NCBI RefSeq assembly: GCF_035658495.1
Contig: NZ_CP141945.1
Span: 1,368,001-1,432,000 of the forward strand
Direction: 5' to 3'
Source of the DNA: Novosphingobium sp. RL4
Lineage (GTDB): Bacteria > Pseudomonadota > Alphaproteobacteria > Sphingomonadales > Sphingomonadaceae
DNA: 64,000 nucleotides
Shown here: positions 13,262 to 26,825 of the stretch, piece by piece
Numbering within the stretch: the first letter of the stretch is position 1
Layout: each line of letters opens with the position of its first letter
The notes under the pieces: generated by a model
Seen by the model: only the letters and a program-made list of their open reading frames with translations
What the model was told of the DNA's origin: nothing
Database searches by the model: none
Made by a program: the position numbers and the translations under genes

Positions 13262-13689
13262 ATGGGATTATCAGAGTTTGATCCCGGCGCTCGCGAGCGG
13301 GTATCTTGGAACGCCGGGCGCAAGGTTGGAGCAAAGCGAGCGCTCAAGCCCCGTCAGATATGGGCGATCCGCTTCTTTGATGCGATCTGGTGAAAATCAG
13401 GATCAGCGATATCTTTTGTGATCGGAAAATTCGAACACGGGCCACGGTCGTACAGCAAAGGACCGGCAGACGGGCCCAGTTTGAACTGATGACCGATGCT
13501 CGCGCCAGCCTGCTCAAATGGCTGGAACTGAGAGGCGGGTTGTTGGAGGATTTTGCATTTCCTAGCTGTACCGATCACGCAGCCCACATAAGCACCAGGC
13601 AATATGCTCGCCTTGTTGACGAATGGGTCACGGGGATCGGACTTCCCGGCGAAGATTATGGCACTCACTCTCTGCGCCCATCCAAGACC
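13262..13689 (+). pseudogene. tyrosine recombinase/integrase remnant
   Basis: Two frames together read as a phage-type integrase of a kind I recall from sphingomonads. From 13262 the frame gives EFDPGARERVSWNAGRKVGA and KRALKPRQIWAIRFF, then a stop. From about 13380 the frame shifts and continues DLVKIRISDIFCDRKI, ISTRQYARLVDEWVTGIGL and EDYGTHSLR. By comparison with intact relatives as I remember them, about 25 codons including the first catalytic Arg are missing at the shift. The frame loses homology after the HxxR box, so the catalytic Tyr is absent. It is not functional. Confidence 0.78.
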
Positions 13690-13690
13690 C

Positions 13691-13819
13691 TTGCTCGCGG
13701 ATGCCGGACAGATCGACGAACCTGTCAATCGATCGCAGTAGACGGCCTGCCGGCACGTGCCGTTCCAGGTTCAAGCTGTAAAACAGCGCCTCCTGCGCCA
13801 TCGTCCGCTCACCCATCAT
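13691..13819 (-). mobile_element. IS5/IS1182-type transposase, N-terminal stub
   Basis: From the ATG at 13819 the minus strand encodes MMGERTMAQEALFYSLNLER followed by HVPAGRLLRSIDRFVDLSGI, the conserved start (DUF772 region) of DDE transposases of the IS1182/IS5 group. Homology stops after about 43 residues, exactly where the integrase remnant on the other strand ends. The catalytic core and far end of the element are gone. I could not identify a terminal inverted repeat with confidence. Confidence 0.7.
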
Positions 13820-13969
13820 CAGCCTGTCTCCGTCCTGCTGGAACAGTGAATCAGACCACACAGGCTACTTCAAGCCAGAGTTTTCCAACACCATCTGCCC
13901 ATCCCGGTCATTCACGTGGGCGTCCCTGCATCGTCCCGGGGCAATGTCGGTGCGATGCAGGGATCGCTT

Positions 13970-16027
13970 TCAATACTTGTACTGGAACGACAGGAAGAAG
14001 CTGCGGCCCGGTTCGGGGAAGCCATCGGCCAGCACATAATAATCGTCGAACAGGTTGCGTGCGCCCGCGCCGATGACGATGCCTTCGCGGACCTCGTAGT
14101 TCACGGTCAGGTTGGCCTGCACGTAGCTTCCGGTGCGATAGTATTCGGTTCCGGCCGTGTTCACCGTCCAGCGGTTCGACGCGATATCGGCGTTGGGCAG
14201 GATGTGCAGGCCGCCCAGCGGCGCCCAGTCGGCCCAGACGAAGGCCTTGTGCGTGGGAACGCCGGTCGGCTGGAAGGCCGAGTTGGTCGGGTCGTCGAGG
14301 TCGCGGTGCGTGTAGGTGTAGTTGCCGCCGAGGCTCAGCGTTTCGGTCAGCCTTGCCGTCAGGGCGATCTCGCCGCCGTAGTAGTTGCCGCTGCCGAGGT
14401 TGCGGCTCTGGGTCACGGACTGGCCCTGGTAGAGGAACGGGAAGGCGACGATCACGTCGTTCAGGTGCGAGTAGAACAACGTGGCTTCGGCGTGGAGCGG
14501 GCCGAAATCGCGCGTGCCGCCGATTTCGTAATTGGTGGCGCGTTCGGCCTTGAGGTCCGGGCTGGACACCGCGCCGCCGAAGCGGGAGCTGAACCGCTCG
14601 AAGATAGTGGGGAAGCGCGCGCGTGACGAGACTCCGGCGTGAAGGCTGGTCAGCGGGTCCGGCGTCCAGACGAGCTGCGCCTGTCCGTTCAGCGCCTTAC
14701 CGTTATGCAGGGGATAGGCGATCAGGACATTGCTGGCGTAGTCCTCCGCCCGCGTGAGATTGCGCCAGTCGAAGCTGACGCCGGTGGTCAGCGCCAGGGC
14801 GGGGCTGAAGGCAAGGCGGTTTTCGGCCGCGATGCTGTAGGTCTCCTCGATGCTGGTCTGCCGGGGTTCCGTGGTGCCGGAAGGGAAGGCCTGCTGCCAT
14901 TCGACATGCTTGTCGCGCCGGTAATGGGCCGCGACGCTGAAGCGGTCAGACCCGCTGACGTTCACGTCGATCTGGGCCGAACCGCCCCAGGCAGTGTCCG
15001 CATAGTAGCTGTTGAAGGCGCGGCCTTTGGTCTGGGTGGTCTGCGTCGCATCGTCGAACGCGCGCAGCAGGTTGTCGAAGCCGTTGCGATAGGCGCGCGT
15101 CTTCAGCGTGGCCACATCGCCGAGCGCCGTGGTGGAGAGGAAGTAGATGCTGTCGATGTTCCAGTAGGGCCACGACCAGTTGCGCTGGCTGGACGGGGCA
15201 TCGGAGATGTGCAGCGGCGCGTTCTTGGAGCCTTCCTGCCGGGTATAGCTGAGCGAATATTCGTCGGTGGCGTTGGGGGTGAAGCCCAGCTTGGCGTTGA
15301 CGCGCCAGTCCTCGGTGCGCGAGAAGTCCCGGTGGCCGCCGTTTTCCGCCGAACCTGCGGCAGGTTCGTAGCCGCCGGGAAGATCCCAGTGGTCGGTGAA
15401 GCGCCGGGTGTAGCTGGCCTGCGCGTACCACTTGTCCTGCCGGGTGCCGAGCAGGGCGAAGAGATTGTAGCCTGCGTATTCGCCCTTTCGGCCCAGGTCC
15501 AGGGTTCCGCGCGCCTCTGCTTCGATCGGCTGGACGGGCTTGCGGGTGACGAGGTTGATCGCACCGCCCATCGCCCCGGGGCCGTCCAGCACCGAGGCAT
15601 AGCCCTTGGCCACCTGCACCTGCGCGATATCGCCGGTGAGGAAGCGGCCGTAATCGAGCCGCCCGTCGGCGGGCAGGTAGACGCGGATGCCGTCGATCGA
15701 GAGCGGCACCTGGTAACGGTCGAAACCGCGCACGTTGATCAGGCGTTCATTGCGAGAACCGCCGCTGTTCGAGGAGGAGACGCCGGGCATGAGATTGAAC
15801 GCATCGTCCAGGCTGGCACGCTGGAACAGCCGCATGGCGTCGGCGTCGAGCGTGGAGGAGGAGATCGTCGGCGTGGATTGCGTGGGGGCGGTGACGATGA
15901 TCTGCCCCAGCGTGAAGGCGCTGCCCTGTTCGGTCGTCGCGGCAGTTTCGGCAAGCGCGGGCGCGGCCAGAACCGGCAGCCCGAGCGCGCAGGAAAAAGT
16001 AACCGCAAGTGCTGATGCGGAACGCAT
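13970..16027 (-). CDS. TonB-dependent outer-membrane receptor
   Basis: 685 residues. A signal peptide (RSASALAVTFSCALGLPVLA) is followed by a plug domain (DAFNLMPGVSSS, LINVRGFDRYQVPLSIDGIR, QVQVAKGYASVLDGPGAMGG) and a 22-strand barrel ending in FFLSFQYKY with a C-terminal aromatic. It should move a large or scarce ligand across the outer membrane using TonB energy. I start at 16027 behind GGGGG; the frame is open for another 289 codons upstream, antisense to the next gene. It is divergent from the Pro-rich protein and peroxidase, with a ModE-type box between. The ligand is unknown; molybdate or a carrier-bound metal is my inference. Confidence 0.92.
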   Translation of the reverse strand: MRSASALAVTFSCALGLPVLAAPALAETAATTEQGSAFTLGQIIVTAPTQSTPTISSSTLDADAMRLFQRASLDDAFNLMPGVSSSNSGGSRNERLINVRGFDRYQVPLSIDGIRVYLPADGRLDYGRFLTGDIAQVQVAKGYASVLDGPGAMGGAINLVTRKPVQPIEAEARGTLDLGRKGEYAGYNLFALLGTRQDKWYAQASYTRRFTDHWDLPGGYEPAAGSAENGGHRDFSRTEDWRVNAKLGFTPNATDEYSLSYTRQEGSKNAPLHISDAPSSQRNWSWPYWNIDSIYFLSTTALGDVATLKTRAYRNGFDNLLRAFDDATQTTQTKGRAFNSYYADTAWGGSAQIDVNVSGSDRFSVAAHYRRDKHVEWQQAFPSGTTEPRQTSIEETYSIAAENRLAFSPALALTTGVSFDWRNLTRAEDYASNVLIAYPLHNGKALNGQAQLVWTPDPLTSLHAGVSSRARFPTIFERFSSRFGGAVSSPDLKAERATNYEIGGTRDFGPLHAEATLFYSHLNDVIVAFPFLYQGQSVTQSRNLGSGNYYGGEIALTARLTETLSLGGNYTYTHRDLDDPTNSAFQPTGVPTHKAFVWADWAPLGGLHILPNADIASNRWTVNTAGTEYYRTGSYVQANLTVNYEVREGIVIGAGARNLFDDYYVLADGFPEPGRSFFLSFQYKY

Positions 16028-16074
16028 GAATGAAACCCCCATATTTTTGGCCTGTCGCCATTCCGGCGATTCTC

Positions 16075-16091
16075 TATATCTGGTGGTATAT
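16075..16091. promoter_or_regulatory. ModE-type box in the divergent promoter
   Basis: TATAT-N7-TATAT, extended to CTATAT-N7-TATATAG, fits the published E. coli ModE consensus of TATAT-N7-TAYAT. It lies 47 bases before the receptor start and 63 before the start chosen for the divergent gene. The ModE-like regulator encoded at 17839-18219 is the obvious candidate to bind it. Confidence 0.65.
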
Positions 16092-16138
16092 AGTCGAGGG
16101 CGAACATGAAAGACGATTACAACAATGGGGCATCCACG

Positions 16139-16825
16139 ATGATGGGGCGTGCGCCTCCTTGGGCCGGGCTTGGAACGGCGCTGATACTTGCCGCGCTGTC
16201 GGTTTCCGGAACGGCCTGGGCCCAGGTCATCCCGATGCAGTCGCCGGTTCAGGCCCCTGCCCAAACTCCTGCTCAGGCACCGGCCGAGGCACCGGGCCCG
16301 GCGGCTTCCGGCTCCCCTGGCGGCGAATCTTCGCCTATGGCGGATCGCATGCCCAGTCCGATGGCTTGCCCGTCCGATCCGGTGGAGCTGCCGCCCGAAC
16401 TCGCCGCCTGGAACCAGCGCACGCGGCTGCTGGCGGCGCGTGACACGCGCTCGCTTTCGGGCGCCACGATCGCGATCGGCAAGGGGATCGAGGGCGGTCT
16501 GCGGCCGACCCCGGAGATGCGCTATGCCCAGCGACCGGAAAAGCCGGGCGGTTCGGTCAGTTTCGGCGGCCTTTACACGTTCGATGTCGCGGAGGCGGGC
16601 AGCTATCGCGTCGCGCTCGGTTCGGCGGCCTGGATCGATGTCATCAAGGCCGGGAAAAAGGCGGGAGACGGCACGGCCATGACCTCGACCGCGCATGGTC
16701 ACGGCCCTGATTGCTCGGGAATCCGCAAGATGGTGGACTTCACGCTCGAGCCCGGAACTTACCTGTTGCAGGTCTCGGCCAATGCCGATGACCGGCTTCC
16801 CCTGCTCGTCGCCCGGCTGCCCTGA
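16139..16825 (+). CDS. exported Pro/Ala-rich protein of the receptor-peroxidase locus
   Basis: 228 residues from the chosen ATG. Residues 1-29 form a signal peptide (AGLGTALILAALSVSGTAWA). A linker of PAQ/PAE repeats runs to about residue 65. The rest looks like a single beta-sandwich (VSFGGLYTFDVAEAGSYRVA, then VDFTLEPGTYLLQVSANADD). It holds only two Cys, so it is not an MbnP-type four-Cys partner, and a THGHGPD-like AHGHGPD stretch could bind metal. A start at 16106 is possible but would give an acidic leader. It ends 8 bases before the peroxidase gene. The function is unknown. Confidence 0.7.
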   Translation: MMGRAPPWAGLGTALILAALSVSGTAWAQVIPMQSPVQAPAQTPAQAPAEAPGPAASGSPGGESSPMADRMPSPMACPSDPVELPPELAAWNQRTRLLAARDTRSLSGATIAIGKGIEGGLRPTPEMRYAQRPEKPGGSVSFGGLYTFDVAEAGSYRVALGSAAWIDVIKAGKKAGDGTAMTSTAHGHGPDCSGIRKMVDFTLEPGTYLLQVSANADDRLPLLVARLP

Positions 16826-16833
16826 GCGGGCGG

Positions 16834-17838
16834 ATGCGATACGCCCTGCTCGGGCTGTCGCTGCTTGCCGCGACGCTCTCCGGCCTGTCGGCACGGTCCC
16901 GTCCGGGGTGGGACTGGGGCGCGGGCGTTCCGGCGCCCCGCGTTCCCGCCGACAATCCGATGAGCGCGGCGAAAGTCGAGCTGGGCCGCCGCCTGTTCTA
17001 CGACGCCGATCTCTCGGTGAACGGGACGATGTCCTGCGCGACCTGCCATGAGCAGCACCACGCCTTCGCCGACGGCAATCGCACTCACCCCGGCGCGCTG
17101 GACGATCCGGGGCGGCGCAACGTGCCGGCGCTGGTCAACCTCGCCTGGCTTTCCCCGCTGACATGGGCCGATCCGCGCCAGACGACGCTGGAGGCGCAAG
17201 TCTCGGTTCCGGTACTGGGCGACCATCCGGTAGAGATGGGGATGAAGGGGCGGGAAGCCGATATCGCGGAGCGGCTCGGACGGGATCCGTGTTACCGGAC
17301 GATGTTCCGCAAGGCGTTCCCGGGCGAGGCGGGCGGCATCGGTTACGGCAAGGTCACGAAGGCGCTGGCCGCTTTCGAGCGCACGCTCGTGTCGCGGGAC
17401 AGTGCGTGGGACAAGTTCTCGCGCGGGGAGGCCGATGCGATTTCCGCCGAGGCGAGGCAGGGCGCGACCTTTTTTGCGCGAGATTGCGCCTCATGCCATG
17501 CCGGGGCCGACTTTACAGATGCGCGCTTCCACCGGATCGCTGCACCCGGAGACATTCCGGGAGATGACGCGGGTCTGGCGGAAGTGACCGGCGTGGCGGG
17601 GGACATGGGCGGGTTTCGCACGCCGGGCTTGCGCAATGTCGGGGTGACGGCGCCCTATCTTCACGACGGGTCGATTCCCACGCTCGCCGGGGCGCTGCGT
17701 GCCCACGCGGGTTTCGAGGCGATGCCGCAGGACGAGGCGAAACCGCTGCTCGCTTTCCTCGATGCGCTTACCGATCCGGCGTTTCTGGCCGATCCCCGGC
17801 ATGCCTTGCCGCGCACCGCCTGCGGCAAGGCGCTTTGA
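16834..17838 (+). CDS. dihaem cytochrome c peroxidase, MauG/MbnH-type
   Basis: 334 residues with a signal peptide (LLGLSLLAATLSGLSA). Two haem-binding motifs are visible, CATCH at 68-72 and CASCH at 218-222, with the family spacing, plus conserved segments DLSVNGTMSC, FADGNRTHPGALD and FRTPGLRNVGVTAPYLHDGS. Such periplasmic enzymes reduce peroxide or, like MauG and MbnH, oxidise Trp or Tyr on a partner protein. The neighbouring exported protein, 8 bases upstream, is the natural candidate partner. Both are probably driven from the promoter with the ModE-type box. Confidence 0.9.
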   Translation: MRYALLGLSLLAATLSGLSARSRPGWDWGAGVPAPRVPADNPMSAAKVELGRRLFYDADLSVNGTMSCATCHEQHHAFADGNRTHPGALDDPGRRNVPALVNLAWLSPLTWADPRQTTLEAQVSVPVLGDHPVEMGMKGREADIAERLGRDPCYRTMFRKAFPGEAGGIGYGKVTKALAAFERTLVSRDSAWDKFSRGEADAISAEARQGATFFARDCASCHAGADFTDARFHRIAAPGDIPGDDAGLAEVTGVAGDMGGFRTPGLRNVGVTAPYLHDGSIPTLAGALRAHAGFEAMPQDEAKPLLAFLDALTDPAFLADPRHALPRTACGKAL

Positions 17839-18219
17839 TCACTCGCCCTTGGCGGGCAGCGGGGTACTGCGCAAGCTGGCCTCGAGCGCGGCGTATTCCG
17901 GCGAGTTCCCGAGAGCGGCCATGAGGCCCTGCAGGGACCGGAAGCGTTCCAGCACCGTTCGTCCGGTTTCCGTGAGGCGGGCGCCGCGTTCGTGGCTTCC
18001 TCCGGCTACCGTCTCGACTAGCGGCTGGTCCCAGCAGCGGTTCATGGCATCGACCAGGAGCCACGCCCGGCGATAGCTCATCCCCATCGCGCGCCCGGCG
18101 CCCGATATCGAACCCTGGCTGGCGATGGCTTCCAGCAGGTCCGCCTTGCCCGGCCCCATGGCGATTTCGTCTCCGCAATAGATGCGGGCGCGCAGCTTGA
18201 GGTGGGAGGGGTCGGTCAT
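17839..18219 (-). CDS. ModE N-terminal-type winged-helix regulator, no molybdate-binding domain
   Basis: 126 residues. It matches the DNA-binding half of ModE: KADLLEAIASQGSISGAGRA, then GMSYRRAWLLVDAMNRCWDQ and a GGSHERGARLTETGR wing. Normal ModE (about 260 residues) has two further TOBE domains that bind molybdate; they are absent, and the protein ends in a short helical tail. It is convergent with the peroxidase gene and touches its stop. With the TATAT-N7-TATAT box nearby it likely controls the receptor locus, but whether it senses molybdate itself is doubtful. Confidence 0.85.
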   Translation of the reverse strand: MTDPSHLKLRARIYCGDEIAMGPGKADLLEAIASQGSISGAGRAMGMSYRRAWLLVDAMNRCWDQPLVETVAGGSHERGARLTETGRTVLERFRSLQGLMAALGNSPEYAALEASLRSTPLPAKGE

Positions 18220-18468: not shown

Positions 18469-19134
18469 ATGAACGCCAATACGGTCCGCCACGGCCGCAT
18501 CGAGGATATCTACGCGATCGCCGTGGGCAGCGTGCTGATCGGCCTTGGGCTGACCATTCTCCATGCGGCGGGGCTGGTGACAGGCGGCATGGCGGGGCTG
18601 GCGCTGCTGGTCGGTCATTTCGCGCCGCTGCCGCCGGGCCTGCTGTTCGCCCTGCTCAACGTTCCGTTCCTGGCGCTGGCGCTGCGGGCGATGGGTTCGC
18701 TGTTCACCCTGCGCACGATCGCGGCGAGCGGCGGCATCGCGCTGGCCTCTGTGCTGGCCGAGCACGCGCTGACGATCGAGGTCAACGATCCCTTCGCCGC
18801 AGCCGTGGGCGCAGGCACCCTGCTGGGCATGGGCACGCTGGCGGTGGTGCGGCACGGGGCCGGGGTTGGCGGGGTCGGCATCGTCACGTACTGGCTGTTC
18901 CTGAAGCGGGGCTGGAACATCGGCCGCTCGCAGATCGCGATCGACTTTGCGATCCTTGGCGCTTCGGCACTGTTCCTGCCGGCGGACAAGCTGGCATGGT
19001 CGGCGGTGAGCGCGATTTCGATGGGCCTTGTTACCGGACTGTGGTTGCGGCCGGGGCGCTATGCGGGCTTTTCCCCGCTGCGCGCCGCCCGCCGCACCGC
19101 GCAGGACGATCAGTCCAGCCCGACCAGGCGATAG
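18469..19134 (+). CDS. YitT family membrane protein
   Basis: 221 residues with five or six hydrophobic segments, starting with AVGSVLIGLGLTILHAAGLV and the TGGMAGLALLV segment that marks the YitT/YczE family, and ending in a basic cytoplasmic tail. Members are integral inner-membrane proteins without a settled function. I start at 18469; 14 more codons upstream are open but lack homology. Its last 25 bases overlap the end of kdpE on the opposite strand. Confidence 0.85.
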   Translation: MNANTVRHGRIEDIYAIAVGSVLIGLGLTILHAAGLVTGGMAGLALLVGHFAPLPPGLLFALLNVPFLALALRAMGSLFTLRTIAASGGIALASVLAEHALTIEVNDPFAAAVGAGTLLGMGTLAVVRHGAGVGGVGIVTYWLFLKRGWNIGRSQIAIDFAILGASALFLPADKLAWSAVSAISMGLVTGLWLRPGRYAGFSPLRAARRTAQDDQSSPTRR

Positions 19135-19796
19135 CCGACGCCGGGCTCGTTGCGAAGCATGGCCGGCTGAGAGGGATCGTCCTCCAGCTTGCGCCGGATG
19201 CCCCGCGCGGCCACGCGCAGGTATTCGACATCGCTTTCGTGGCCCGGCCCCCACACCGAGCGCAGGAGCTGGGCGTGGGTGATGACCCGGCCCGGACTGC
19301 GCGCAAGTTCCGAGAGAAAGCCGTACTCCTTTGGCGTGAGGTGGATTTCCGCGCCCCCCTTGCGAATGATCCGGGCGGTGAGGTCGATCTCGATATCGCC
19401 ATGCCGCACGGGCTTTTCCCCGCTTTCCACCGGCAGCCGGTGGCGCAGCGCGGTGCGGATCCGGGCGAGGACCTCTTCGCTGTCAAACGGTTTGGCGACA
19501 TAGTCGTCCGCGCCGAGGTCCAGCGCGGCCACTTTCTGTTCGGTGGCGTCGCGCGCGGAGACGACGATGATCGCCGTGCGCCCCTTGAGGATCGGGATCA
19601 GCTCCAGCCCGTCGCGGTCCGGCAGGCCGAGGTCCAGGAGGACCACTTCGGGCTTGTCGATCGTAAGCGCATTGAGCGCCTCGCGGGCGGTGCCGGCTTC
19701 CACCACCTGATAGCCCGCGCGGGAGAGCCCTGCGTGGAACAGGCGGCGGATGGCGGGCTCGTCATCGACGACGAGAATCTTGACGTTGGGGTTCAT
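19110..19796 (-). CDS. kdpE: response regulator KdpE
   Basis: 228 residues of the OmpR/KdpE family. The receiver domain shows the acidic pair in ILVVDDEPAIR, the phospho-acceptor Asp in VVLLDLGLPDRDG and the Lys in DYVAKPFDSEE. The C-terminal winged helix contains LTPKEYGFLSELARSPGRVI and ends in GVGYRLVG. The ATG overlaps the KdpD stop as ATGA; an ATG four codons earlier is open too. It should activate the kdp operon when KdpD signals low potassium. Confidence 0.96.
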   Translation of the reverse strand: MNPNVKILVVDDEPAIRRLFHAGLSRAGYQVVEAGTAREALNALTIDKPEVVLLDLGLPDRDGLELIPILKGRTAIIVVSARDATEQKVAALDLGADDYVAKPFDSEEVLARIRTALRHRLPVESGEKPVRHGDIEIDLTARIIRKGGAEIHLTPKEYGFLSELARSPGRVITHAQLLRSVWGPGHESDVEYLRVAARGIRRKLEDDPSQPAMLRNEPGVGYRLVGLD

Positions 19797-22465
19797 ATCG
19801 TGGGCCATTCCCTGAGATGGGCCGGATCGAAGCGGATCGTGAAGCAGGCGCCTCCCTTGCCGTCCGCATCGGGCGGGCGGGCCGCCGCTGAGACCGAGAG
19901 TCCCATGGCCAGCGCGAAACCCCTGACGATGGCAAGGCCGAGGCCGGTGCCGCCCTTGCGGTCCGAACCCTCGATCCGGGCGAAAGTCTCGAAGATGCGT
20001 TCTTCCTCGCCGGGCGGGATGCCGGGGCCGCGATCCGCTACGGTCAGTTCGAGGCCGGGGCCGATGCGGCGCGCGGCGATTGCGATGGGTCCGCCGGGAT
20101 CGCCGTATTTGGCGGCGTTCTCGATCAGGTTGGTGAGGCAATGGTGGAACAGGTGCGGGTCCACCATGACCATCGGCACGTCCCGCGCGATGGCGATATC
20201 CAGCCGGTGTCCGCCCAGCAGCGCGCGCAGTTGGTGCAGGGCCCCCGATACCGCTTCCTCCAGGTCCACCGGCTCCGCCTTGCCGTGCAGCGCGCCCGCC
20301 TCGATCCGGGCCATGTCGAGCAGGTTGGTGACGAAGCGGTGCAGCCGCTCCGCCTCGCCGCGCGCCGCCGCCATCTGTTCTTCCTGCTCGGGGTCGGTGG
20401 TGCGCACCGCATCGAGCGTGCCGAGGATCGTGGTCAGCGGCGTGCGCAAGTCGTGGCTGACCGAGGACAGCAGCGCATGGCGCAGCCGGTCGCGTTCGCG
20501 CACTTGCGACAGTTCGGCCATCTGCCCTTCCAGCAGGATCCGGTCCAGCGCGAGCGCGGCCTGATCGAGCAGGCTGAGCAGCAGGGGCAACTGGTCCGGC
20601 CGCACCGGCGCGCGGGCATCGCTGCGGGCCAGGCCGAAGACGCCCATCGCCGCGCCGCCCGCCGCCAGCGGATGGAACAGCCATTCCGAGGCGGTCAGCG
20701 TGTCCGACCCGCGCCCGGCTGGCGCATTGTTGTCGTAGGCCCAGGTCGCGGCGGCAAGGTCGAGGGTTTCGAGATGGGCTTCCTTCGGCCAGCTCCAGCG
20801 CTGCGAGAGGCCGTCATCGCCGGGCATCAGGAGAACCGCATTGCCGGCCAGCAGGCGGCCGATCTCGGCGCAGAGCAGGTGCCCCAGGTCGTCCACCGTC
20901 CTCACCCCGGTCAGCAGCCGCGCGAAGCCCGCCAGCGCGCCGTTCTGCGCGGCGCTGGCCTGCGCCTGCAAGGCGTGCGCCCGCACCCGCGCGGCAAGCT
21001 GGCTGCTGACCACCGCCACGCCGAGCAGGACCAGTACGGTGAGGATGTTGCGCGGGTCCTCGATGGTCAGGGTGTGGGTGGGCGGGATGAAGAAGAAGTT
21101 GTAGCCGATCGAGCAGAGCAGCCCGGTGACGACGCCGGTACGCAGGCCGTAGCGCGTGGCGGCGACCATCACCGGCAGCAGGTAGAGCAGGCCAAGGTCC
21201 GAGATATTGCCGGTGCGCAGGATCTGCGTGCCCATCAGCGTCACCGCCGCGGTGAGCGCGAAGGAGACGAGGTAGCCGGAGAGGCTGCCCCATTCGCCGC
21301 GCGGCCGGCTCAGGCGCGGCACAGGGGTTTGTGCCGCATTGTCGCCGGTGGGCAGGACATGGACCGCCAGCCCCTGCGTTTCGCGCACCAGTCGGTCGAC
21401 GATCGAGCCGTGGCGCAGTTCGAACCAGCGCGAGCGGGACGATTTCCCGACGATCAACTGGGTCGCGCGGGCTTCCGCCGCGAAGCGCTGCAGGCCTGCG
21501 AGCACGGTCTCGGCCGGCAGCGTTGCCACTTGCCCGCCAAGCTGGGTGGCAAGATGCAGCGCATCGGCGAGGGCGGCGTTCTCGCCGTCGCTGAAGCGGG
21601 CGCTGCGCGGGGTCTCGATGTGGACGGCGGTCCACGGTGCCCGCAGCGCGTCTGCCATGCGCTTGGCGGCGCGGACCAGTTCGAGCGAGCCGGGCTGTTC
21701 GCTGACGGCCACCACCAGCCGGTCGCTCGCCGCCCAGGTCCCGGCCATGGCGTGGGCGCGCACATAGTCGAGCATCTGCGCGTCCACCGCCTGCGCTGCG
21801 CGGCGGAGCGCCAGTTCGCGCAGGGCCGAAAGGTTGGACTTGGAAAAGAACGCGCCAAGCGCGCGGGTCGCTTCCTCCGGCACGTAGACCTTGCCCTGTC
21901 GCAGGCGCTCGATCAGTTCGTCGGGCGGAATGTCGACGATTTCGAGTTCGGCCTCCTCCAGCATCCGGTCCGGCAGGGTTTCGCGCACGCGGACATGCGT
22001 GAACGAGGCGACCACGTCGTTCAGGCTTTCGAGGTGCTGGATGTTGAGCGTGGAATGGACGTCGATCCCTGCCGCCAGCAGTTCCTCCACATCCTGCCAG
22101 CGCTTGTCGTGGCGGCTGCCGGGGGCGTTGGTGTGGGCCAGTTCATCCACCAGAACCAGCGCCGGGCGGCGTTCGAGGATGGCGTCCATGTCCATCTCGT
22201 CCAGCGCGTGGCCCTGATAGGCCATGCGGCGCAGCGGTACGATCTCGAGCCCGGCAAGCTGCGCCGCCGTTTCCGCCCGGCCATGGGTTTCGGCAACGCC
22301 GACCACGACATCCAGCCCCGCCCTGGCGAGAGCGGCGCCTTCTGCCAGCATCTCGTAAGTCTTGCCCACGCCAGGAGCCGCCCCAAGGAAAACCTTGAGG
22401 CGGCCTCGGTTCTCGCGCGCGGCGGCGCGAAGGAGGGCGTCGGGATCGGGCCGGGGATCGTTCAC
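19793..22465 (-). CDS. kdpD: osmosensitive potassium channel histidine kinase KdpD
   Basis: 890 residues with full KdpD architecture: N-terminal KdpD domain with a Walker-type GAAPGVGKT, a universal-stress-like domain, four membrane helices ([18 protein letters not shown] onward, about 400-500), a GAF-like region, then the kinase with [16 protein letters not shown] (phospho-His), [11 protein letters not shown] and [11 protein letters not shown] boxes. It senses potassium and turgor and phosphorylates KdpE. The GTG start overlaps the kdpC stop as GTGA, so the pair is translationally coupled. Confidence 0.97.
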
Positions 22466-23070
22466 GGCCGTGCTTGTGCGCCGCCTGCCGCCATGCTGTC
22501 GAGAGCGAGATTGAGTTCGAGCACGTTGACGCGCGGTTCGCCCAGGAAACCGAGCAGGGGGCGTTCGACATGCCGCGCCACCAGCGCATCCACCCGCGCC
22601 TTTTCAAGGCCGCGCGCCCGGGCCACGCGATCGGTCTGGAAAAGCGCCGCCTCGGGGCTGACATGGGGGTCCAGCCCCGAGGCGGAAGTTGTCACCAGGT
22701 CGGATGGAACGAGGGAACCTGGGGATTTCTGAAGCGCGGAAACGTCTGCCTTGACGCGGTCGGCAAGGGCCTGGCTGGTGGGGGCGAGGTTGGACCCGGA
22801 GGAGGCCATGGCATCGTAGCCGCCCCGTTCGGCGGCGCCCGCGGCGGAAGGGCGGCCGTGGAAGTAGCGGTCCTGCGTGAAGGCCTGGCCGATCAGGGCC
22901 GAGCCGATCACCTGTCCGTTGCGCTCGATCAGGCTGCCGTTCGCCTGCCGGGGGAACAGGGCCTGCGCGATCCCCGTGAGCGCCAGCGGATAGGCAAGGC
23001 CGAGCAGGAGCGCGAAAAGCACGGTGAGCACGAGCGCGGGGCGCGCGGCGGTGGTGAGATCCTTGAGCAT
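22462..23070 (-). CDS. kdpC: potassium-transporting ATPase subunit KdpC
   Basis: 202 residues. One N-terminal membrane helix ([20 protein letters not shown]), then the KdpC motifs [27 protein letters not shown] and the SGSNLAPTS stretch, and a conserved C-terminus ending in [11 protein letters not shown]. It stabilises the KdpA-KdpB complex and raises ATP affinity. AGGA precedes the ATG. It lies 12 bases after kdpB and overlaps kdpD. Confidence 0.97.
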
Positions 23071-23082
23071 GGATGCATTTCC

Positions 23083-25098
23083 TCAGACGAGGTGGAGCGC
23101 GGTGACCGCAAGGTCGATGAGCTTGATGCCGATGAACGGCGCGATCAGGCCGCCGAGGCCGTAGACCGCGAGGTTGCGGGCCAGCAGCGGACCGGCGGCC
23201 ATCGGCCGGTATGTCACGCCCTTCAGCGCCAGCGGCACCAGCGCGGGAATGATCAGCGCGTTGAACACGATGGCCGAGAGGATCGCGCTTTCCGGCGAGG
23301 CGAGGCGCATCACGTTGAGCACGCCGAGGCCGGGATAGAGCGCCAGGAACATGGCGGGGATGATCGCGAAGTATTTCGCCACGTCATTGGCGACCGAGAA
23401 CGTCGTCAGCGCGCCGCGTGTCATCAGGAGCTGCTTGCCTAGGCCGACGATCTCGATGAGCTTGGTGGGGTCACTGTCGAGATCGACCATGTTGCCCGCT
23501 TCGCGCGCGGCCTGGGTGCCGGTGTTCATCGCCACGCCGACATCGGCCTGGGCAAGGGCGGGGGCGTCGTTGGTGCCGTCGCCGCACATCGCCACGAGCC
23601 TGCCGCCCTGCTGTTCCTTGCGGATCAGCGCCAGCTTGTCCTCGGGCGTGGCTTCGGCGAGGAAATCGTCCACGCCTGCCTCGGCGGCGATGGCGGCGGC
23701 GGTCAGCGGGTTGTCGCCCGTGATCATCACCGTGCGGATGCCCATCCGGCGCAGTTCCATGAAACGTTCGCGCACGCCCGCCTTCACCACGTCCTTCAGC
23801 GCGATTATCCCGAGCAGGCGGCCGTCGCGGGCGACTGCGAGCGGGGTCTGGCCCGAACGGGCGATTTCCTCGGCGAGGCGGCGCAGTTCGGCGGCCTGGG
23901 GCGAGGATGCCGCGTCCGGATTGGCGCGCAGGATTGCGTCTACCGCACCCTTCTGGACCAGTCCGGCAGTGCTCTTCAGCCCGGAGATCCGGGTCTGCGC
24001 GGTGAAGGGGATGACTTCGGCGTCTTGCGGCAGCGCGCCGGGCACGAGGCCGTGGCCTTCGCGCGCCAGCACCACGATCGAGCGGCCTTCGGGCGTTTCG
24101 TCGGCAAGGCTGGCGAGCAGGGCGGCTTCGGCGAGGATGCCGGCACCGACCCCGGAAACCGGGCGGAACTCGGCGGCCTGACGGTCTCCCACGGTGATCG
24201 TGCCGGTCTTGTCGAGCAGCAGCACGTCGATATCGCCCGCCGCTTCCACCGCGCGGCCCGACTTCGCCAGCACGTTGAAGCGCACGAGGCGGTCCATCCC
24301 GGCAATGCCGATGGCGGAGAGCAGCGCGGCGATGGTGGTGGGGATCAGGGTGATGAGGAGGGCCGCGAGCACCGCTACCGGGATCGCGCCGCCGGCATAG
24401 TGCGCAAAGGCCGGGATCGTGGCGACCGCGATCAGGAACACGATCGTCAGGCCCACCAGCAGGATGGTAAGGGCGATCTCGTTGGGGGTCTTCTGCCGCT
24501 CCGCGCCTTCGACGAGGGCGATCATGCGATCGAGGAAGCCCTGGCCCGGCTCCTGCGTGACCCGCACCCGGATCTCGTCGGAAATGACGCGGGTGCCCGC
24601 GGTGACGGCGGAACGGTCTCCGCCGGCTTCCCGGATCACCGGCGCGCTTTCGCCGGTGATGGCCGCTTCGTTGACGGAGGCGACGCCTTCGATCACTTCG
24701 CCGTCGGCGGGGATGAGGTCTCCCGCCGTCACCACCACCACGGCGCCCTTCTTCAACTGGGAGGCAGGAACCGAGCGTCCATCGGGCAGGCGGGCGGTGA
24801 GGTCCGACTTGGTGGCGCGCAGCGAGGCCGCCTGCGCCCGTCCGCGCCCTTCGGCCAGCGCCTCGGCGAAGGTGCCGAACAGCACGGTCAGCCAGAGCCA
24901 GGCGATGAGCTGGATCTGGAACCCGCGCGGCAGCGGCTCGCCGCCGAGGATCAGCAGCACGGTGAGCAGGACGGCGACGACCGCCGTGGTGAAAAGCACC
25001 GGGTTCCTCACCAGTTCGCGCGGGTCCAGCTTGCGGAAGGCATCGCCGATCGCGGGCACGACCAGCCGGGCCGAGAACATCGAGTTGGGTGTCGTCAT
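23083..25098 (-). CDS. kdpB: potassium-transporting ATPase, ATP-hydrolysing subunit KdpB
   Basis: 671 residues, a P-type ATPase. The actuator TGES loop is at about 148-151 ([11 protein letters not shown]), the phosphorylated Asp at 296 in DKTGTIT, the hinge motif GDGTNDAP further on, and seven hydrophobic segments. It couples ATP hydrolysis to potassium uptake through KdpA. No strong Shine-Dalgarno is seen before the ATG at 25098, which begins 11 bases after the kdpA stop, so translation is probably coupled to kdpA. Confidence 0.97.
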
Positions 25099-25109
25099 GA
25101 CAGGAGCTT

Positions 25110-26825
25110 TCAGAACAGTTGGCCCGAGATCATCGCGAGATGATCGGCGATGGGCCCGAGCGCGAGGCTCGGCAGGAAGGTGAGGCCGCCCAGGATCAGG
25201 ATCACGGCGACCAGCAGCCCGATCCACAGCGGGCCGGTGGTCGGGAAGGAGCCGGCGGTTTCGGGGGTATGCTTCTTGGTCGCGAGGCTTCCCGCCACCG
25301 CGAGCACCGGCACGATCACGAAGAAGCGGCCGATCCACATCGCCGCCGAGAGCAGGCCGTTGTAGAACGGCGTCCCGGCGCTCAGCCCGGCAAAGGCGGA
25401 GCCGTTGTTGCCGGTGCCCGAGGCGAAGGCGTAGAGGATCTCGGTGAAGCCGTGAGGCCCCTTGTTCAGCGGCCCGGCAAGCCCTTCCGGCATGACGGCG
25501 GAAAGCGCGGTGAGGCCCAGGATGCAGAGCGGCAGGACGGCGATGGCGAGCACCGCCAGCTTGACTTCGCGCGCCTCGATCTTCTTGCCGAGGTATTCCG
25601 GGGTGCGGCCGACCATCAGGCCCGCCACGAAGACCGAGAGCAGCGCGAACAGCAAGAAGCCGTAGATTCCCGCGCCGACCCCGCCGACCACGACTTCGCC
25701 AAGCTGCATGTTGATGAGCGGGACCATCCCGCCCAGCGCGGTGAAGCTGTCATGCATGGCATTGACCGCGCCGCAGGAGGCCGCCGTGGTCACGACCGAG
25801 AACAGGGCGCTGGCGGTGATGCCGAAGCGCAGTTCCTTGCCTTCCAGGTTGCCGCCGGGCAGGCCGAGCTGATGGAGCACCGGGTTGCCCGCGGCTTCCT
25901 GCCAGTATGTCACCCCGGCGCCGACAAGGAACAGCGCCAGCATCGCCGCAAGGATCGCCCAGCCCTGGCGGGTGTCGCCCACCGCCTTGCCGAAGCACCA
26001 CGTCAGGCCGGCGCCCAGCGCGAAGATCGAGAGCATCTGCACCAGGTTGGTCAGGGCCGTGGGGTTCTCGAACGGGTGGGCGGAATTGGCATTGAAGAAG
26101 CCGCCGCCGTTGGTGCCGAGCATCTTGATCGCCTCCTGCGAGGCGACCGGGCCCAGCGCGATGGACTGGCGCAGGCCTTCCAGCGAGGTGGTGTCGACCA
26201 TGCTCGACAGCGTCTGCGGCACGCCGCTGGCGATCAGGAACAGCGCATAGGCCAGGCAGGCGGGCAGCAGCAGGTAAAGCGTGACGCGCGTGCAGTCGGC
26301 CCAGAAATTGCCGAGCGTCTTCGCCTCGCGCCGCGCAAATCCGCGGAACAGCGCAAAGGCCACCGCGATGCCGGTGGCGGCGGACAGGAAGTTATGGATG
26401 GTCAGCCCCAGCATCTGGCTGAGGTTCGACATCGCGACTTCGCCCGAATACCACTGCCAGTTGGTATTGGTGGTGAAGCTCACCGCCGTGTTCATCGCGC
26501 CGTCCGCGCCTATCGCGGCAAGGCCGCGCGGGTTCATCGGCAGCACGTCCTGAAGGCGCAGGACACAGTAGGTGAACAGCAGGAGGACGAGGTTGAACGC
26601 CAGCATGTGCAGGGCGTAACGGCGCCAGCCCTGCTCGGCATTCGGATCGATCCCGGCAAGCCGGTAGAAGCCGTTCTCGACGGGGCCGAGCACGCGGTGA
26701 AGCGGGGTTCGGCGCCCCTCGTAAAGCGCGAAGAGCCAGAGCCCCATCGGCTTGGCGAGGCCCGCGACCAGCGCGGTGAACAGGAGGATCAGGGTCCAGC
26801 CCGGCAATGTCATTCCGGTGGTCAT
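25110..26825 (-). CDS. kdpA: potassium-transporting ATPase, potassium-binding subunit KdpA
   Basis: 571 residues with about ten membrane helices. Selectivity-filter regions typical of KdpA are visible: [32 protein letters not shown] and [14 protein letters not shown]. It binds potassium with high affinity and forms the translocation path of the Kdp complex. A GTC codon follows upstream, and ATG 26825 is preceded by GGAGG at 7 bases. It sits 13 bases after kdpF. Confidence 0.97.

Follow-up and report, generated by a model that had tools for sequence, protein, structure and literature searches.

What is a gene for a TonB-dependent outer-membrane receptor doing back to back with one for a small exported protein, in the company of a two-haem enzyme and a ModE-type regulator? 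We addressed this question for a locus of Novosphingobium sp. RL4 (assembly GCF_035658495.1, contig NZ_CP141945.1), using a 64,000-nucleotide stretch of its DNA, hereafter the window, to which all coordinates refer. The receptor, the exported protein and the enzyme appear to be under the control of a molybdenum regulon, and the analysis suggests a dedicated outer-membrane route for molybdenum or tungsten. Taken as a whole, the locus is best explained as the part of a regulon for acquiring molybdenum (or tungsten) that serves the outer membrane, a reading to which we assign a probability of about 0.7. An earlier note on this DNA had described four genes, namely a receptor, a divergent exported protein, a dihaem enzyme and a ModE with a DNA-binding domain only, and this arrangement was borne out. 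The features are listed below; conservation in the enzyme refers to an alignment of 121 sequences, made up of the window's enzyme and its 120 nearest listed homologues (best 120 of 4086).

13970..16027, minus strand: TonB-dependent outer-membrane receptor (type 1 of the regulon), 685 amino acids; PF07715 and PF00593 above their cut-offs.
16074..16093, no strand: ModE-type palindromic box, CTATAT-N8-ATATAG, between the divergent starts.
16139..16825, plus strand: exported partner protein, with 16106 as an alternative start; a beta-sandwich domain follows a Pro/Ala-rich N-terminal linker.
16834..17838, plus strand: di-haem c-type enzyme, MbnH/MauG-like; two CXXCH motifs, His291 at the presumed sixth-ligand position, extra Cys pair C153/C330.
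17035..17049, plus strand: first haem motif, CATCH, residues 68-72; kept throughout the alignment of 121, save C68 in one sequence.
17485..17499, plus strand: second haem motif, CASCH, residues 218-222; kept throughout the alignment of 121, save C221 in one sequence.
17704..17706, plus strand: codon of His291, which replaces the Tyr of MauG/MbnH-like enzymes; His in 121/121, Tyr in 16/16 comparison sequences.
17839..18219, minus strand: single-domain ModE-type regulator, 126 amino acids, without a molybdate-binding domain; convergent with the di-haem enzyme gene.

The space between the divergent starts is where the regulatory evidence begins. The earlier note had seen a TATAT-N7-TATAT box there (16075-16091). 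This box is real and marks the sole such place in the window on both strands, with 0.07 matches expected at up to one mismatch, but its description was slightly off-centre and CTATAT-N8-ATATAG at 16074-16093 fits better. Base composition predicts 0.012 exact copies of the latter pattern for the 5.4-Mb genome, which holds one; the reversed pattern also has one match there. The distance from the box is 46 bp to the receptor ATG and 45 bp to the ATG at 16139, which is the likelier start of the partner open reading frame (ORF; 16106-16825, plus strand) because, judged by eye, a GGGG motif precedes it and a signal-peptide-like N-terminus results. A sigma-70 promoter scan returned none (0.2 expected) and so lends no support to repression by overlap with a promoter. 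Another place in the genome, one mismatch away from the box (G000:C2:1434881), lies between two ORFs, one resembling a GntR-type regulator and the other an oxidoreductase by eye; it was discounted as a probable chance match.

Relatives of the locus were collected with a profile of the partner. In named genomes 193 relatives were confirmed. The 80 best, mostly from sphingomonads with a few from Methylorubrum, Nitrobacter, Caulobacteraceae and Hyphomonadaceae, were examined together with flanking DNA of up to 9 kb on either side, neighbours being counted irrespective of contig ends. The closest named relative found was Novosphingobium sp. ST904, whose partner is 97% identical (records of the window's own genome may be excluded). 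The laboratory strain Novosphingobium naphthalenivorans NBRC 102051 (L079) carries all of receptor, box, partner and enzyme. A divergent receptor homologue was present in 54 of the 80 partner loci, an adjacent di-haem enzyme in 56 and a ModE gene within 4 kb in 32. Every one of the 54 divergent receptor-partner gaps contained a box matching at least 11 of the 12 half-site bases with a spacing of 8 (or 6), compared with 3 of 1600 random segments from the same loci. Perfect boxes were equally frequent in gaps with a ModE gene within 4 kb (12/22) and without one (17/32). At the 26 partner loci that have no divergent receptor, a box of at least 11/12 was found in 9 and none in 17. The bases preceding the 50 boxes of spacing 8 tend to TCG (TCT in the window) and so add to the resemblance with the E. 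coli consensus ATCGNTATATA-N6-TATATANCGAT, as given in the available part of the source.

Four loci from close Novosphingobium relatives (L074-L077) present a reduced form. The partner is kept and neither receptor nor enzyme was found beside it; ModE is kept as well in L074, L075 and L077, the last of which lies near a contig end. The sequence upstream of the partner matches the box at only 8-10 of 12 positions in these loci and looks decayed.

We then turned to 298 genomes of the family, among which the single-domain ModE was found in 101, the partner in 72 and the exact box in 50. In tests that treat genomes as independent and ignore their relatedness, ModE was associated with the exact box (39/50 box genomes versus 62/248 others, p = 2.4e-12) and with the partner (52/72 partner genomes versus 49/226 others, p = 1.3e-14); among partner genomes, the exact box stood at the partner in 19 of the 52 that have ModE, compared with 0 of the 20 that lack a ModE match (p = 0.0008). 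With the reversed pattern as a control, ModE was present in 1 of 10 genomes. The exact boxes number 57, 46 of them in ModE genomes and 11 in genomes without ModE. As many as 41 of the 46 precede the receptor/partner locus, a second receptor family, modA or molybdenum-hydroxylase subunits: the partner accounts for 20 (19 loci), type-1 receptors with no adjoining partner for 3 (one, L229, near a contig edge), the second receptor family for 7 (6 loci), modA for 9 and iron-sulphur subunits of the xanthine-oxidase type for 2; of these two subunits one scores above the PaoA cut-off (377.5 versus 322 bits) and the other below every curated cut-off. Five remain unexplained, one of them near a contig end.

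The second TonB-receptor family has ModE-type boxes upstream at L226, L231, L233, L242, L243 and L244, and also at L129, L132, L143 and L145; at L231, from the genus of the window, two exact boxes stand in tandem. In loci that were not selected by the box, close members of the family (>850 bits) carried at least 10 of the 12 bases in 5/5, compared with at most 8 in 4/4 remote relatives (<600 bits). The second receptor family with its box is thus different from just any TonB receptor. Among modA genes near ModE, likewise unselected by the box, 10 of 17 had a box of at least 10/12 upstream (background 13/1600 segments).

Regions around ModE were fetched for 40 of its 106 places. With the queries used, 13 of the 40 contained none of modA/modB, the receptor types 1 and 2 or the partner, and four of these 13 carry a box of at least 11/12 within 4 kb of ModE. 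One of the four belongs to genome G134, where ModE, a box (11/12), a third, siderophore-type TonB receptor and a ModA-type binding protein stand in a row (L072:7923-11349). The ModA-type protein matches TIGR01256 with 63.6 bits, just over the cut-off of 62.5, and its start overlaps the stop of the receptor. This receptor and its ModA-type neighbour have a narrow distribution, with a match in 1 of 12 genomes at E 1e-100 and in 1 of 298 at E 1e-60. By eye, the following ORFs resemble a resolvase and a Tn3-type transposase; the set is possibly a mobile molybdenum-uptake cassette. As for the partner loci themselves, a first impression that modC occurs in 10 of the 80 was rejected, since general ABC ATPases are presumed to belong to the ORF cluster behind it; queries with ModA and ModB left L090 and L137, together with a ModB at the edge of L141, and no others.

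Because of the box in all 54 gaps, the association with ModE, the placement of 41 of the 46 exact boxes and the row of genes in G134, membership of the molybdenum regulon is strongly supported, and the receptor locus very probably belongs to it. As the comparison shows, a ModE-type box is common to the locus, modA, the second TonB-receptor family and molybdenum-hydroxylase subunit genes in relatives. The ModE-type control and the link to molybdenum that the earlier note had proposed are therefore supported, as is the conservation of the box in relatives, which it had named as a check.

The regulator itself matches the helix-turn-helix part of ModE only (TIGR00637, 70.8 bits, E 8e-20, versus a cut-off of 98.5). 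It matches PDB entry 2ijl at E 3e-21 and E. coli ModE at 2e-8, and is the only ModE-like match in its genome at E <= 0.001. Profile searches detected no C-terminal Mop/TOBE domains in its 126 residues, nor any TOBE/Mop match across the genome of the window, while 12 of 14 control genomes do have such matches; this ModE is therefore unlikely to sense molybdate in the E. coli fashion. The molybdenum cofactor, a protein partner of the regulator or another signal are possibilities for what it may sense instead. The modABC genes lie on another contig (G000:C1 about 2582021-2584180, L155), with a 10/12 box roughly 23 bp before the likely modA ATG. The profile match of ModC covers positions 3-206 of 353 and ends before TOBE, so that this ModC would be without a TOBE domain. 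The molybdenum-cofactor domain of the xanthine-oxidase family was found in five open frames of the genome, three at full length and two in two pieces. Across 10 partner-bearing genomes, ModB exceeded the cut-off in 8, fell below it in G150 and gave weak matches only in G286.

What the receptor carries is a further step from the data. Its Plug (PF07715, 66 bits) and barrel (PF00593, 123 bits) domains are over their cut-offs, and its nearest NCBIfam model is a siderophore-receptor subfamily, at 146 bits below the cut-off of 223.5. The locus probably transports molybdenum or tungsten in some form, and we infer that the cargo is molybdate, tungstate or a chelate or carrier-bound form, which is a reasonable though tentative assignment. 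Just past the 3' end of the receptor gene lies an ORF (13390-14076) whose start, from its translation, resembles by eye a tyrosine-recombinase remnant, and 19110-25338 holds look-alikes of kdpE, kdpD, kdpC and kdpB (potassium uptake and its sensor), also assigned by eye from the translations.

The partner was modelled by AlphaFold with a predicted local distance difference test score (pLDDT) of 92, and its fold has a weak likeness to CorA; the domain may be a beta-sandwich of the PPC type. In an alignment (A2) of the window's protein with 79 of 120 listed homologues (best 120 of 680), the conserved residues are C88, W102, W176, H197, C203 and K208, numbered from 16106. No NCBIfam family matched the partner at E <= 0.1, MbnP (TIGR04052) included, and its identification as MbnP was rejected for want of profile support; MbnP is not among the structural matches listed either, which excludes nothing. 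Many homologues of the partner (e.g. P0004, P0008, P0013) bear the database name 'homogentisate 1,2-dioxygenase'. Pfam and NCBIfam support for it is absent in the window's protein, so that the name is probably a propagated misannotation.

The di-haem enzyme scores 298.1 bits against the 'MbnH family' model of NCBIfam (TIGR04039), under the cut-off of 362.85, and its best sequence match in the PDB is 6e1c (E 1e-64). In MbnH and MauG, the sixth ligand of the low-spin haem is a Tyr. Residue 291 of the enzyme corresponds to a Met in bacterial peroxidases and to residue 294 in MauG, positions which we take to be those of the sixth ligand, and it is His in all 121 aligned sequences. It is also His in 54 of the 57 enzymes from partner loci, the remaining three being truncated there. 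In contrast, the 16 other matches to TIGR04039 from 190 genomes of the class, 6 of them over the MbnH cut-off, all have Tyr at this position. The match to 3orv, presumably the Y294H mutant of MauG, outscores that to wild-type MauG. The Cys pair C153/C330 follows the same division, being present in 121/121 sequences of the His branch and 0/16 of the Tyr comparison set. Bis-His ligation of the haem is accordingly predicted from the alignment alone.

These residues bear on whether the enzyme modifies the partner in the manner of MauG or MbnH, as the earlier note had suggested, for example by turning Trp into kynurenine, and so makes the partner's metal site; this would compete with a peroxidase-type role of the enzyme and not with the molybdenum link. 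The two genes are adjacent in 56 of the 80 loci. Conservation extends to W102 and W176, and only in loci with an adjoining enzyme does the loop G149-V151 show no variation. Both Trp are, however, equally kept in the 24 loci where the enzyme was not found beside the partner, and the ligand Tyr is replaced throughout the branch. According to the available part of a study of BthA, the Tyr-to-His change abolishes the near-infrared bis-Fe(IV) feature, as reported for MauG, and leaves peroxide reduction in place (PMC6405878). For this reason, and because His replaces Tyr here, a MauG-type radical modification has become less likely; it is possible though doubtful, and a peroxidase-type redox role is the simpler prediction.

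Similar gene sets, MbnT/MbnP/MbnH and CorA/CorB, handle copper. The receptor and partner might likewise serve copper or some other metal and merely be cross-regulated by the molybdenum regulator. We consider this unlikely, as the box links the locus to modA and molybdenum-hydroxylase genes, the partner has no NCBIfam match and the Tyr of MbnH is replaced in the enzyme. Less likely again is the import of an organic substrate of molybdenum hydroxylases, such as an aromatic or N-heterocyclic compound, with uptake and molybdenum supply being co-regulated. The same box does precede hydroxylase subunits, and the genome holds several such enzymes, but boxed receptors also adjoin ModE alone or, in G134, the ModA-type binding protein, and the cluster count of the partner loci contains no constant catabolic neighbour. 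A merely coincidental box near an unrelated ModE-like gene, a notion fed by the 48 of 80 loci with no ModE within 4 kb, is hardly credible against the 54 conserved boxes and the genome-wide association with ModE.

If the favoured reading, an outer-membrane arm for molybdenum or tungsten, is correct, the locus could work as follows. At sufficient molybdenum, the single-domain ModE would bind the box and repress both divergent promoters. Upon molybdenum starvation the receptor would be made, and TonB energy would pull a scarce form of molybdenum or tungsten across the outer membrane, a chelate being a likelier cargo than the free oxyanion. In the periplasm, the exported beta-sandwich protein would take up the cargo or buffer it. 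Where the di-haem enzyme occurs, it may perform peroxidase-type redox chemistry on this partner or on the chelate, and ModABC would then carry molybdate into the cell. What partner and enzyme contribute is the least certain part of this scheme.

In a wider sense, sphingomonads and some other alphaproteobacteria may have built a TonB-energised outer-membrane route for molybdenum or tungsten more than once. One ModE-type box would govern at least three families of receptors, of which one is accompanied by the present exported partner and usually a natural His/His di-haem enzyme, and one, in a single case, lies in an operon with a ModA-type protein; the enzyme would contribute novel redox chemistry acting on a metal carrier or chelate, and sensing would proceed without a known molybdate-binding domain. 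Taken jointly, these propositions seem to us evenly poised. The usual view is that molybdate passes the outer membrane without active transport. If the proposal is true, some bacteria pay for active uptake of molybdenum at this membrane, and the locus supplies candidate genes for it. The natural Tyr-to-His branch offers a ready test of what MauG-type chemistry requires. How molybdenum is sensed becomes a question in a genome that has a single-domain ModE and no detected Mop domain. A search of the open-licence literature in PMC returned no title on a ModE-controlled TonB receptor for molybdate, a result that does not establish absence. Both TonB receptors and ModE regulons are already known, and their combination with such a partner and enzyme branch was not found in that literature.

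Among known systems, as far as the available parts of the sources describe them, the closest in layout are the methanobactin and copper systems (MbnT with MbnP/MbnH; CorA/CorB; PMC3621798; PDB 6e1c, 4bz4), in which a TonB receptor lies near the gene of an exported partner and an MbnH-like di-haem enzyme, and to whose CorA the partner fold is weakly alike. Those systems are under copper or sigma/anti-sigma control, whereas here there is a ModE-type box, a partner that is not MbnP by profile, a His in place of the axial Tyr and an added Cys pair. The ModE regulons of E. coli and of delta-proteobacteria with a single-domain ModE (PMC545781) share the TATAT-rich palindrome, with a geometry as in ATCGNTATATA-N6-TATATANCGAT, and the inclusion of modABC; the present regulon differs from what is described there in targeting TonB receptors, through a regulator without molybdate-binding domains in a genome without TOBE/Mop matches. 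Extracellular carriers that handle molybdenum are also on record, namely in P. aeruginosa, where ModA secreted by the type VI secretion system acts with IcmP, described as an outer-membrane metalloproteinase (PMC8602904), and in Azotobacter, whose azotochelin is a molybdenum-binding catecholate siderophore (PMC9694258). IcmP is not presented there as a TonB receptor, and the accessible portions of these two papers do not describe a TonB receptor with a ModE box. Finally, the engineered variants MauG Y294H and BthA Y463H (PMC6405878, in the part available) carry His at the same ligand position as the enzyme studied here, in which, judging from the alignment alone, the His would be natural and clade-wide.

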